Part shown: positions 23,337 to 39,687 of the stretch, in pieces | Layout of the letters: each line of letters starts with the position of its first letter | How positions within the stretch are numbered: position 1 is the first letter of the stretch | Source of the DNA: Halorientalis litorea | GTDB taxonomy: Archaea > Halobacteriota > Halobacteria > Halobacteriales > Haloarculaceae | DNA: 64,000 bases | Assembly (NCBI RefSeq): GCF_023028225.1 | Contig: NZ_CP095482.1 | Location: 2,108,001-2,172,000, forward strand | Reading direction: 5' to 3' | Position numbers and translations under genes: made by a program | The notes under the pieces: generated by a model | Seen by the model: the letters and a program-made list of their open reading frames with translations, nothing else | Databases searched by the model: none | Told to the model about the DNA's origin: nothing

Positions 23337-24878
23337 GTGACAGCGAACCGCTTCTTCGGTGGCCATCCCGAGACCCGCGCGCTCTCGGAGGTCGACCGCG
23401 TACAGTTCCTGGATACGACCCTACGCGACGGCGAGCAAGCCCCGGGTGTGTCGCTCACGCCCGAGGAGAAGGCCCGCATCGCACAAGGACTCGACAGGGC
23501 CGATATCGACTTCATCGAGGCTGGCAGTGCCTGTACCGGCCCCGGCGAACGCGAGACGATACAGCGCGTGACCGACCTCGATTTGGACGCCACGGTGACG
23601 AGTTTCTGCCGTGGCATCAAAAACGACATCGACCTCGCGCTGGACTGCGGCGTCGACGGCATCGACCTCGTCGTCCCGGCCAGCGACCGCCACGTCGAGG
23701 GGAAGGTCGGCACCGACCACGACGCGAACGTCGCCAACACGGTGGAACTCGTCGAGTACGCCAAAGACCACGGCCTCTGGGTCGAGGTCATCGGCGAGGA
23801 CGGCTCCCGGGCGGACGTGGACTACCTCGTCGAGGTGCTCGGCGGGGCCATCGACTCCGGGGCGGACCGCATCTGCTACGCCGACACCGTCGGCCACGCG
23901 ACGCCCGACGAGACGCTCGAACGGGTCGCCGCGCTCGCGGAGCTGGGGCCGACCAGTACCCACACACACGACGACCTCGGACTGGCCGTGACGAACGCCC
24001 TCGTCAGCATCGCCGCCGGGGCCGACTTCGTCCACGGCACTATCAACGGCATCGGCGAGCGTGCGGGCAACGTCGCCCTCGAAGAGGTCGCCATCGCCCT
24101 CTCACACGGCTACGACGTGCCGTCGATGGACCTCACCGAGGTGTACGACCTCGCGCAACTCATCGCCAAGTTCACCGGTATCCCGCTGGCCCCGAACAAG
24201 GCCGTCGTGGGCGAGAACGCCTTCACCCACGAGTCGGGCATCCACACCGACGGGACGCTCAAAGACGACGCGATGTACGAGCCGTACCCGCCGGAGACGG
24301 TGGGGCGTGAACGCCGCCTCGCGCTCGGGAAACACGCTGGCCGCGCCGGCGTCGAGGCGACCCTCGCGGAGCGCGACATCGAAGTCGACGACGACCACCT
24401 CGACGACATCGTGGCCCGCGTCAAGGAACTCGGCGACCGGGGCAAGCGCGTCACCGACGCCGACCTGCTCGCCATCGCCGAGGACGTGCGCGGCACCGAC
24501 CGGGACCGCCGCGTCGAACTGCTCGACCTGACGGCCGTCAGCGGCGTCTCCCCACCCACGGCGAGCGTCCGCCTGTCCGTCGACGACGAAGTCCGCGAAC
24601 AGGCGGCGACCGGGAGCGGCCCCGTCGACGCCGCGATGAACGCCGCCGAGGTGGCACTGAGCCACAGCGCGGACGCCGCGCTCGAATCCTACCACGTCGA
24701 CGCCATCACCGAAGGCACCGACGCCATCGTCACCGTCGAGGTGGAGATGTCCCGCGGCGACGACCACGTCACCGTCACCGCGAGCGACTCGGACATTACC
24801 CGCGCGTCCGTGACCGCGATGGTCGACGCGATGGACCGACTGGTCGCCGACGACGACGAGCAGGTCATCGCCGACTAA
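23337..24878 (+). CDS. leuA: 2-isopropylmalate synthase / citramalate synthase family (LeuA)
   Basis: This 513-residue protein has the HMGL-like TIM barrel (LDTTLRDGEQAPG near residue 23; HTHDDLGLAVTNA and NGIGERAGN for metal and substrate binding) and a C-terminal LeuA regulatory domain (about 385-505). It condenses acetyl-CoA with 2-oxoisovalerate (leucine) or pyruvate (citramalate, isoleucine); the two are hard to separate by eye. I chose GTG 23337, which gives VTANRFFGGH before the barrel and follows the leader ORFs. In the haloarchaea I know, ilvB follows this gene; here its TAA stop is the first triplet of a palindromic element (24876-24932). Confidence 0.85.
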   Translation: MTANRFFGGHPETRALSEVDRVQFLDTTLRDGEQAPGVSLTPEEKARIAQGLDRADIDFIEAGSACTGPGERETIQRVTDLDLDATVTSFCRGIKNDIDLALDCGVDGIDLVVPASDRHVEGKVGTDHDANVANTVELVEYAKDHGLWVEVIGEDGSRADVDYLVEVLGGAIDSGADRICYADTVGHATPDETLERVAALAELGPTSTHTHDDLGLAVTNALVSIAAGADFVHGTINGIGERAGNVALEEVAIALSHGYDVPSMDLTEVYDLAQLIAKFTGIPLAPNKAVVGENAFTHESGIHTDGTLKDDAMYEPYPPETVGRERRLALGKHAGRAGVEATLAERDIEVDDDHLDDIVARVKELGDRGKRVTDADLLAIAEDVRGTDRDRRVELLDLTAVSGVSPPTASVRLSVDDEVREQAATGSGPVDAAMNAAEVALSHSADAALESYHVDAITEGTDAIVTVEVEMSRGDDHVTVTASDSDITRASVTAMVDAMDRLVADDDEQVIAD

Positions 24879-24932
24879 ATTTTACGTCGTCGGGTGCCAC
24901 GCTTCGCGCGGCACCGCTCCTCGCAAAATTTA
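24876..24932. repeat. Nested palindromic element E1 at the leuA stop
   Basis: The outer arms TAAATTTT (24876-24883) and AAAATTTA (24925-24932) enclose a strong hairpin GGTGCC (24893-24898) / GGCACC (24910-24915), which itself contains CGC-ttc-GCG. The left flank TTTTACGTCGTCGGGT and the right flank CCTCGCAAAA recur almost unchanged in the larger element at 32712-32820 (TTTTTCGTCGTCGGGT and CCTCGAAAAA). Both begin at or right after a GACTAA gene end. E1 supplies the leuA stop codon and lies between convergent genes, so a 3'-end or terminator role is plausible. Confidence 0.7.
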
Positions 24933-25133
24933 GTATAACAGGGTGTCGTACAACGGTTCCCATACCTGTTAGCACCGCCCCGAATCGGTCAATTCAGGAT
25001 ACCCACATACCAGCCCGACACTCAAAAATACCATAATATTGTTACGAATCACGTGCGAGACTTAGAGCCAGCAGATGAAGCAGTGATTCAGCAACCAAGC
25101 GGAAGGACATCACCCTAACGGAGCGGTTCGAAA
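24933..25133. other. A+T-richer intergenic stretch with no gene
   Basis: I see no convincing gene here. Base composition is visibly less G+C-rich than the neighbours (for example CAAAAATACCATAATATTG near 25023). It looks like degenerate, probably acquired DNA running into the DUF3592 gene. Confidence 0.45.
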
Positions 25134-31752: not shown

Positions 31753-31811
31753 CGGCGGCCCCGCTGTAGTACGCCGCGGGCTTTTTAATGACCGGGCGGC
31801 GTATCGGTGGT

Positions 31812-32711
31812 ATGCGCCTTTCGGTGGTCGTCCCGACGCTCAACGCCCGCGACAAACTTGTGGGCTGTCTGGACGCACTCACCGACCACGCCCCCGACGC
31901 CGAAATCGTCGTCGTCAACGGGCCGTCGGCCGACGGGACGACCGGCATGGTGCGGGACCGCTCGGACGTGGACGTCCTCGTCGAAGTCGCGGACCGTCGA
32001 ATCAACGTCGCCCGCAACGCCGGCATCGACCGCGCGACGGGCGATGTCGTCGCGCTCCTCAACTACGACCTCACCGTCACCGACGGGTGGCGTGACGCCC
32101 TCCTCACCGGCATCGACCGTGCGGACGTGGTGACGGGGCCGACGCTCCAAGAACTCGACACGGGCGTCGCCACGGAGGAGCCCGAATCGCGGATCATCAA
32201 GGGCCGGACCGTCTCCTACTTCAACGGGGACAACGTCGCGTTCACTCGAGAGACGCTCGACGCGCTCGACGGTTTCGACGAGTACCTCCACACCGGCGGC
32301 GCGCGCGACGCCGCCCACCGGCTCGCCGGGATGGACCGGACCGTCGACTGGAACAGCGACATGTGTGCCCGCCGCGAGTACAGTGCCGACGGCGGCGTCA
32401 CGGACCGTGACTGGGAGCGGCGGTACCGCTCGCTCGCCTACCGCCTCGCGAAGAATTACGGGGTCCGTCCGACCGTTCTCCGTCGTCTCCTCACCCACGG
32501 CGTCAGCGACGCCGCGGGCGCGCTCCGGGACGTGGCAACCGGCTCCGCCCGCCCGTCGAGTTGGCTCGGCAACGGCCGTGACGTGCTGTCGGGGATGGGT
32601 CGCGGGCTGAAAGACGGTGCCCGCGCCCGCCTCGACGACCGGACCCCCCGTCGAAACCCCGAGGGTTGCTCCGCCCGCACCGACCGCGCCGTGGCTGTCT
32701 ATACCGACTAA
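31812..32711 (+). CDS. Glycosyltransferase family 2
   Basis: This 299-residue protein has the GT-A opening SVVVPTLNARDKLVGCLDAL and the conserved DAEIVVVNGPSADGT. The usual DxD is replaced by NYD at NYDLTV (about residues 83-88), and further conserved parts are NGDNVAF and FDEYLHTGGA. There are no membrane helices. CTTTTTAA (31780-31787) lies about 27 bases upstream of the ATG, consistent with a leaderless mRNA. The sugar and acceptor are unknown. Its stop TAA is followed immediately by the hairpin array. Confidence 0.8.
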   Translation: MRLSVVVPTLNARDKLVGCLDALTDHAPDAEIVVVNGPSADGTTGMVRDRSDVDVLVEVADRRINVARNAGIDRATGDVVALLNYDLTVTDGWRDALLTGIDRADVVTGPTLQELDTGVATEEPESRIIKGRTVSYFNGDNVAFTRETLDALDGFDEYLHTGGARDAAHRLAGMDRTVDWNSDMCARREYSADGGVTDRDWERRYRSLAYRLAKNYGVRPTVLRRLLTHGVSDAAGALRDVATGSARPSSWLGNGRDVLSGMGRGLKDGARARLDDRTPRRNPEGCSARTDRAVAVYTD

Positions 32712-32885
32712 CCACCTTTTTCGTCGTCGGGTCGCCGGAGGCGACCACTCACACCAGAAATCGGAGATTTCTGGTTTGCTCACGAGACGCGGTGCGTCTC
32801 GTGAACCTCGAAAAACGTGGGCGAAAAACTGCTGAACTCGCGGCACCGCCGCGAGTTCAGTGAACCGCGCGCCAACGGCGCGCGG
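32712..32885. repeat. Array of five consecutive hairpins (element E2 and two added modules)
   Basis: Five perfect inverted repeats, each with a three-base loop, fill almost the whole gap. H1 is 32730-32746 (7-bp stem, loop GGA). H2 is 32753-32775 (10 bp, GGA). H3 is 32780-32804 (11 bp, GGT). H4 is 32832-32860 (13 bp, ACC). H5 is 32865-32885 (9 bp, AAC). Outer arms at 32712-32723 and 32809-32820 pair in 11 of 12 positions around H1-H3. GTGAACC follows both H3 and H4. The ends match element E1 at 24876-24932. The array lies between the 3' ends of convergent genes. Confidence 0.8.
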
Positions 32886-32897
32886 ATGCTCGACCGC

Positions 32898-38926: not shown

Positions 38927-39687
38927 TCGGTACCGATTGTGACCGTATCGCCCACGTCGACGCCGAACGCCTCGTCCCCGCGGCCCCGGTTGACGGCGAG
39001 TTCGACGTTACCGTGGCTCCCGACGGTGACGAGTTGCTCCCCGGCGTCGACGGCGGCGTAGTACCTGCGTGTGGGCGCGCTCTCGCCGTCGACTGTGACC
39101 GTCCCGCCGAACGCGTCCACGAGTACGTCGCCCGGGACGTTCGTGACGGCGTTGCCGAACCCGTCGACGACCAACACCTCCCCCGTCGCCGCGTCGTCCG
39201 CGACAGTCGCCTCGGGGAACGTGCGGTCAACCACGTCGTCCGTCGGGGTGAACTCGGCGCGTTCGTGGAACGCGCCGACGCCGGCCTCGTGGACCCGCGC
39301 GGCGGCGGGCGCGAACACGTCCCGGCCGTGGAACGTCGCACTGTCCGGGTCCTCGACCGTAATCTCGAACGCCTCCACCTCGGCCTCGCCGGCGAGTTCG
39401 CGGGCTACCGGTCGGAGGACGCCGTTGTCCGGGCCGACGAGGGCGTGGTCGCCCGCCCGCACGGCGAGGGCGGCGCGGTCGGTACCGACGCCGGGGTCGA
39501 CGACGACGAGGTGGACGGCGGGCGGGAAGTACGGCAGGACTTCCCGGAGCCAGAACGCGGCCGCCCGCACGTCCTGCCGGGGGAAATCGTGCGCAACGTC
39601 CACGAGTCGAGTGTCCGTCCGCTGGAGGATGGCACCCTTCATCGCCGCGGGGTACGGCGACCCGAAGTCAGAACTCAGCGTCAACAT
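38923..39687 (-). CDS. SAM hydroxide adenosyltransferase (DUF62 family)
   Basis: This 254-residue protein belongs to the fluorinase/DUF62 family, whose ordinary members hydrolyse S-adenosylmethionine to adenosine and methionine using water. Conserved parts are TLSSDFGSPYPAAMKG at the N-terminus, VVDPGVGTDRAAL, LVGPDNGVL and VVDGFGNAVTNV. I see no reason to assume halogenation. It begins one base after the nadM stop, forming a two-gene operon. Its stop overlaps the cinA-like stop in a shared CTAG. Confidence 0.88.
   Translation of the reverse strand: MLTLSSDFGSPYPAAMKGAILQRTDTRLVDVAHDFPRQDVRAAAFWLREVLPYFPPAVHLVVVDPGVGTDRAALAVRAGDHALVGPDNGVLRPVARELAGEAEVEAFEITVEDPDSATFHGRDVFAPAAARVHEAGVGAFHERAEFTPTDDVVDRTFPEATVADDAATGEVLVVDGFGNAVTNVPGDVLVDAFGGTVTVDGESAPTRRYYAAVDAGEQLVTVGSHGNVELAVNRGRGDEAFGVDVGDTVTIGTD

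Follow-up and report, generated by a model that had tools for sequence, protein, structure and literature searches.

A dispersed, modular hairpin element at gene 3′ ends of Halorientalis litorea and related Halobacteria

The window analysed here is a 64,000-nucleotide stretch of the Halorientalis litorea genome (contig NZ_CP095482.1, positions 2,108,001–2,172,000), in which a glycosyltransferase family 2 (GT2) gene and an amidohydrolase gene converge on a gap that spans from the GT2 stop codon to the amidohydrolase stop codon on the opposite strand. The features of this focal gap, and of a second copy of the same element elsewhere in the window, are as follows (window coordinates).

31788–32711, + strand: GT2 gene (PF00535), ending 0 nt from the element
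32712–32723, + strand: left outer arm CCACCTTTTTCG, adjoining the GT2 stop codon, with a T5 tract for + strand transcripts; family-conserved
32730–32746, + strand: hairpin H1, 7-bp stem, loop GGA; core hairpin of the family
32753–32775, + strand: hairpin H2, ACCAGAAATC-GGA-GATTTCTGGT, 10-bp stem; opens the nested H2–H3 module, which also occurs alone in other genomes
32780–32804, + strand: hairpin H3, TCACGAGACGC-GGT-GCGTCTCGTGA, 11-bp stem; completes the module begun by H2
32809–32829, + strand: right outer arm together with the conserved core, CGAAAAACGTGGGCGAAAAAC (− strand: GTTTTTCGCCCACGTTTTTCG, two T5 tracts after H4)
32832–32860, + strand: hairpin H4, with a stem of 13 bp and loop ACC; in − strand reading H4 lies upstream of the T tract, a hairpin-plus-T terminator layout for the amidohydrolase gene
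32861–32890, + strand: linker TGAACC, then H5 and the conserved GGATGCT tail, a stretch that not all family members have
32865–32885, + strand: hairpin H5, 9-bp stem, loop AAC
32898 to about 33773, − strand: amidohydrolase gene (PF04909), converging on the element
24875–24941, − strand: another copy, of minimal form with the alternative arms CTAAATTTTAC / GCAAAATTTAG, located at a gene 3′ end; the gene is leuA-like (identified by eye from the translation)

The first-pass annotation of this DNA had described five perfect hairpins, each with a three-nucleotide loop, between convergent genes, and all five were re-found with the stem lengths (7, 10, 11, 13 and 9 bp) and loops (GGA, GGA, GGT, ACC and AAC) that it gave. 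The outer arms (32712–32723 and 32809–32820) pair at 11 of 12 positions with a single C·C mismatch, and a GTGAACC linker is present 3′ of both H3 and H4, again as described. Its remark that one such hairpin would be ordinary and a cluster of five would not is borne out by the composition of the window, which holds 25 perfect hairpins of at least 7 bp with a 3-nt loop compared to 11.8 under a Markov model, five of them within 160 nt at the focal gap, while the maximum in 100 simulated windows was three; strong hairpins elsewhere in the window, near 39265 and 43099, appear to be coding, as judged by eye. The predicted fold of the gap is very stable (−109.5 kcal/mol against −74.9 for shuffled sequences; z −7.5, 0 of 200 shuffles as good), with z values of −7.5 and −7.8 on the two strands against dinucleotide shuffles. 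A scan of the focal gap with the Rfam covariance models returned only sub-threshold chance matches. In the copy at 24875–24941, the left arm contains the TAA stop codon of the leuA-like upstream gene and no H4 follows.

Searches of related genomes placed the focal locus in a dispersed, modular repeat family whose members share its linkers and outer arms. The first-pass annotation had held that the hairpins would be a chance assembly if other genomes showed only unrelated sequence here, with no compensatory substitutions and no repeat family, and on checking this did not hold. When the 211-bp gap was used as query against 58 related genomes, matches came in blocks (query positions 12–51, 55–103 and 107–191) across the genus and the family. 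The 18-base core AAAAACGTGGGCGAAAAA occurs exactly nine times in the H. litorea genome and in more than 120 stretches of named genomes, with most of the matches listed belonging to Halorientalis, Haloarcula, Halomicrobium, Halosimplex, Halorhabdus, Salinibaculum and their relatives. A covariance model of the core gave 48 rows in the H. litorea genome, corresponding to about 37 distinct loci, and matched in 51 of the 58 related genomes, with roughly 33–75 matches per Halorientalis genome when scoring is limited to 89 candidates, some loci matching on both strands. The copy statistics below are drawn from these searches and from stretches of genomes fetched on their basis.

The conserved core of the family has the order CCACCTTTTTC-H1-AAAAACGTGGGCGAAAAA-H4 with H5 optional, such that the outer arms CCACCTTTTTC and AAAAACGTGGG enclose H1 and are followed by CGAAAAA and H4. 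In the orientation of the window, the left part consists of CCAC-C-TTTTT-C, a short variable stem, TCGGG, H1 and CCACTC, and the right part of the returning variable stem, AAAAA-C-GTGGG, CGAAAAA and H4, ending in either a short tail or GTGAACC-H5-GGATGCT. About 115 of 140 copies carry H1 alone between the outer arms (spacing 42–63), with two to several extra hairpins in the remainder. The earlier picture of a modular element that grows by adding hairpins therefore agrees with the variation in hairpin number between the arms, which is one in most copies, three at the focal locus and higher in L035 and in Haloferax plasmid arrays. The additional pair at the focal locus, H2–H3, is a separate module inserted within this copy; its sequence (CCAGAAATCnnnGATTTCTGG, then ACGAGACGCnnnGCGTCTCGT) was found alone in other haloarchaea and also on Haloferax plasmids, inside longer chains of alternating hairpins, and a search of the plasmid collection returned matches to the H2–H3 module only. 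On two of these plasmids (L282 and L283, both at 2440–2590) the chains comprise 3-nt-loop hairpins of the types CCAGAA..TTCTGG and ACGAGA..TCTCGT, joined by the fixed linkers GTCC, TGTGCGA and GAACGTCC. These plasmid chains represent another modular hairpin family, with a wider range. An origin of H2–H3 as an IS605 end was considered and set aside, with no transposase open reading frame recognised by eye beside the stand-alone copies L012 and L017. On one Haloferax plasmid, an H2–H3 copy has an IS6 transposase gene at a distance of 25 nt, and another copy is without such a neighbour.

The stems vary greatly in sequence (92 distinct H1 and 129 distinct H4 stems, with loops mostly of 3 nt), and the compensatory changes that the first-pass annotation had named as a check on its reading were found beyond both shuffled and slid controls. 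The 128 distinct copies have standard pairs in 96.0% of paired cells. Double-changed cells number 177 compared to 45 after shuffling, and the covariation score is 0.222 compared to 0.052 (0 of 500 shuffles), falling to 0.016–0.055 when partners were slid by 1–3 columns. The outer arms likewise swap together, with CTAAATTTTTAC/GCAAAAATTTAG at the focal locus of G001 in place of CCACCTTTTTC here. Mismatches within stems are mostly T·C on the + strand (141 vs 16) and therefore G·A on the − strand. Of 115 cores, 107 have the more stable fold on the − strand, with unbiased flanks, though this bias is partly caused by the conserved mismatches and the copies are not independent. A folded 3′ RNA common to the two convergent transcripts is so far a conjecture: the position and the T tracts suit a 3′-end role and one strand folds better, but there is no G·U excess. 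Because G·U is as frequent as A·C at paired positions of the aligned copies (29 vs 29), selection at the RNA level is unproven; G·T makes up <1% of H1 and H4 pairs. Strand-specific folding loses weight as proof of an RNA function, since G·U is not in excess and the conserved mismatches alone favour one strand.

Copies of the element are concentrated at gene ends. For the 31 copies in the H. litorea genome with both flanks assigned, by the crude means of GC phase, 15 lie between convergent, 14 between codirectional and 2 between divergent genes, placing 29 of the 31 at a gene 3′ end. The left ends of elements touch stop codons or tRNA 3′ ends, often at a distance of 0–3 nt. Several copies directly follow tRNA genes (L025, L003, L006 and L039), and in L025 the tRNA 3′ end (GGTTCGAATCCCGG.ACGCCCG) is repeated beyond the element. 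Only about 1–2% of gene ends have a copy, and for this reason the element is not a general terminator. Occupancy differs between close relatives: at the focal locus, G004 and G006 have the same convergent genes with a gap of 23–30 nt and no element, while G001 has the element with different but compensated arms. The mptA 3′ end bears an element in seven of eight Halorientalis genomes, with different stems in each, and lacks one in the eighth, whereas the L041 gene bears one in H. litorea, G001 and G007 (degenerate) and none in the rest of the Halorientalis genomes examined. Some genes recur as targets, with 15 clusters among 84 right-hand genes across loci and genera, ArgF, CitZ, PheT, IleS, NuoI and ornithine cyclodeaminase among them. 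The element was seen at the 3′ end of argF in L018, L112, L157 and L170, of pheT in L095, L152, L162 and L176, and of the citrate synthase gene in L081, L096 and L186. The recurrence of such housekeeping genes (argF, pheT, citrate synthase) exceeds the expectation for random insertion, although part of it may be inheritance.

Many copies are associated with a duplication of the neighbouring gene end. In 55 of 140 copies, a direct repeat flanks the element on both sides and outscores every one of about 140 mismatched pairings (0 controls); its length is variable (19–164 bp), and about 60% of copies, the focal one among them, have no detectable repeat. In most repeats, the gene's true 3′ end lies on the H4 side and what adjoins CCACC is a fragment of that gene, while a minority derive from gene starts or tRNA ends (L047, L086 and L025). 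In L047 (around positions 1440–1650), two overlapping codirectional genes have the element between them; the start of the downstream gene is repeated over 33 nt, and both genes are intact. With few exceptions, the left joint of the repeat falls 0–9 nt from the CCACC end of the element. The opposite border lies close to the stop codon, only a few nt away for most non-tandem repeats, and the two repeat copies sometimes end in different stop codons. In L041, the element is situated inside the coding end with a stop codon directly after it, and the outer repeat continues into a longer native reading frame. Mismatches between repeat copies are distributed 18/13/67 over the three codon positions. 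The third-position share of 68% lies between the ~50% of a neutrally decaying duplicate and the higher value of true orthologues, which makes it probable that the repeats undergo gene conversion or allele replacement. Simple target duplication followed by neutral decay is disfavoured by this bias together with the stop-codon borders, and pure tandem duplication of gene end plus element is disfavoured by L209, where the outer repeat extends into a longer native reading frame. Repeat pairs within the H. litorea genome are near-identical (34/34, 61/61 and 38/39). Tandem multiplication of repeat and element is common, with a maximum of about 10 copies. In Salinibaculum litoreum (G021 C1), L267 contains 10.5 near-identical tandem copies (692–2494) of a 171-bp unit made up of a gene 3′ end and one element.

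We favour, with moderate confidence, an interpretation in which these copies belong to a dispersed, non-coding, modular palindromic element of Halobacteria that serves as a two-sided transcript-end signal and spreads non-autonomously, leaving a gene-end duplication. Transcripts from the left gene would stop at the T5 tract, and those from the right gene at H4 with the CTTTTTCGCCCACGTTTTTC that follows it. This two-sided role is inferred from the sequence because the T5 tract on the left, and H4 with two T5 tracts on the right, match the T stretch ending in C described in Haloferax volcanii, where this termination motif lies just downstream of genes, gave 95% termination in a reporter, and where hairpins lie upstream of 503 mapped ends (PMC7237163). 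The two have in common a T tract ending in C next to the gene (here TTTTTC on the + strand after the GT2 stop codon and two T5 tracts on the − strand after H4, both family-conserved), but the Haloferax terminators are generic single signals, whereas the element forms a discrete family, characterised by fixed outer arms, by linkers and nested hairpins, and by the duplication of gene ends. The element would spread as a non-autonomous insertion with its joint exactly at the CCACC/GGTGG end, and the adjacent gene-end stretch would be copied to its other side, such that both neighbouring genes would stay intact. Speculatively, the precision with which the joint falls at the outer palindrome base points to a defined DNA end there, for example after cruciform cutting. 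An extension of this interpretation, which we regard as doubtful, is a self-spreading terminator, in which the outer palindrome makes the defined DNA end, and gene tail and element are copied together by recombination into orthologous element-free gene ends, within or between species. If true, it would be a homing-like mobile element without a protein of its own, directed to its targets by gene homology and earning its keep as a two-sided terminator.

Several other explanations were weighed. Homologous recombination between orthologous genes, in which an incoming element-bearing gene replaces the resident and the free GGTGG end is joined illegitimately, leaving the last 20–130 nt of the resident as the outer repeat, is possible, if on the unlikely side. 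It is consistent with the repeats that end within a few nt of the stop codon in most non-tandem cases, sometimes at unlike stop codons, with the codon-position bias above the neutral expectation of roughly 50%, and with the same genes (ArgF to ornithine cyclodeaminase, above) being targeted across loci and genera. However, the nearly identical repeat pairs of the H. litorea genome are what local duplication predicts, the third-position share is lower than between true orthologues, gene conversion between the repeats would yield the same pattern, and the first arrival at a gene is left unexplained. Somewhat less probable is a palindrome that functions at the DNA level with no terminator role; template switching, or an intermediate in hairpin or cruciform form, would keep its arms complementary, and its gene-end copies would persist only since insertions elsewhere do harm. 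The almost purely Watson–Crick stems, in which G·T is so rare and G·U equals A·C, the joint precisely at the outer palindrome base and a microhomology or deletion joint (CGCCCACG) in L191 all agree with this explanation, but the conserved T5 tracts, mismatches and linkers exceed what arm matching requires, one strand folds better while flanks are unbiased (much of this being due to the conserved mismatches), and there is a strong bias towards convergent genes.

Routes that depend on known enzymes appear improbable. A REP/REPIN- or PATE-like element moved by an IS200/IS605-type Y1 transposase acting on single-stranded hairpins would fit the hairpin ends with mismatches, the intergenic 3′ location and the many Y1 copies in some relatives, yet Y1_Tnp is absent in 27 of the 58 genomes, including the element-rich G006, G021, G029, G031 and G037, Y1 occurrence tracks the number of element copies poorly, and haloarchaeal IS605 and PATE elements lack target duplications (PMC3119063), as opposed to the 19–164 bp repeats here. 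Retrotransposition, with a reverse transcriptase copying the RNA of the element into nicked gene ends and producing variable target duplications, matches the variable repeat length and the combination of one precise and one variable element end, but an RVT_1 protein was detected in 0 of the 58 genomes, with positive controls detected, which makes this route highly improbable. That the focal gap encodes a stable structured non-coding RNA is very unlikely: its fold is indeed very stable, but it has no Rfam match and no G·U signal, and copies occur everywhere at gene ends. Although high-GC genomes are rich in short hairpins, chance assembly is refuted by the shuffles, the simulations and the conserved family, and we give it practically no credence.

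Comparison with known systems reveals partial likenesses in each case. Miniature inverted-repeat transposable elements (MITEs) share terminal inverted repeats with the element (outer arms 11/12), yet here the arms bound the core only, with H4 and H5 outside, and the variable 19–164 bp repeats do not match the short, fixed-length target duplication of MITEs. Bacterial REP/BIME mosaics are composite hairpin arrays with linkers, extragenic and often at 3′ ends or between convergent genes. DNA-uptake-signal terminators are simple inverted oligomers, without the modular hairpin chain or the gene-end duplication of the element. The attC sites of integrons are hairpins with conserved ends (R boxes RYYYAAC/GTTRRRY) within a cassette array; they resemble the element in being a hairpin at a gene 3′ end with conserved ends, a variable covarying stem and a joint at the gene-distal end, but by inspection the conserved ends CCACCTTTTT and AAAAACGTGGG are without these boxes, and the element is dispersed rather than in a cassette array. 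The likeness to REP/BIME mosaics lies in linked hairpin arrays outside genes, often at 3′ ends (on REPs, PMC3733652); REP stems keep their sequence, carry GTAG/CGTC tags and are tied to Y1 transposases, whereas stems of the element are free and Y1 is often absent. The DNA-uptake-signal terminators of Neisseria and Pasteurellaceae are alike in being a repeated inverted sequence that doubles as a gene-end terminator (PMC1852404). By description, the nearest haloarchaeal elements are SMR-A and PATE of Haloquadratum walsbyi, which are non-coding, about 100 bp in length, with terminal inverted repeats or palindromes, tens of copies and enigmatic mobilisation, with SMRs targeting PATE/IS605 palindromes without target duplication (PMC3119063). 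They share with the element its haloarchaeal hosts, small size, non-coding and palindromic nature and tens of copies, but are set apart, by description and not by sequence, by its position at gene 3′ ends and the long repeats in 55 of 140 copies. A search of the open-access literature on haloarchaeal palindromic, MITE, REP and convergent stem-loop repeats found only these Haloquadratum elements, and the hairpin element seems to be undescribed there.

Haloarchaeal genomes thus contain dozens of copies of an element placed precisely at gene ends and gained or lost between sister species. It can enter coding ends with the stop codon kept, and copies the tail of the neighbouring gene. If the element terminates transcription, it would represent a mobile terminator, and if its copying is guided by homology, it would represent a protein-free way of spreading. 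Annotators now meet its copies as unexplained intergenic repeats or gene-tail duplications.
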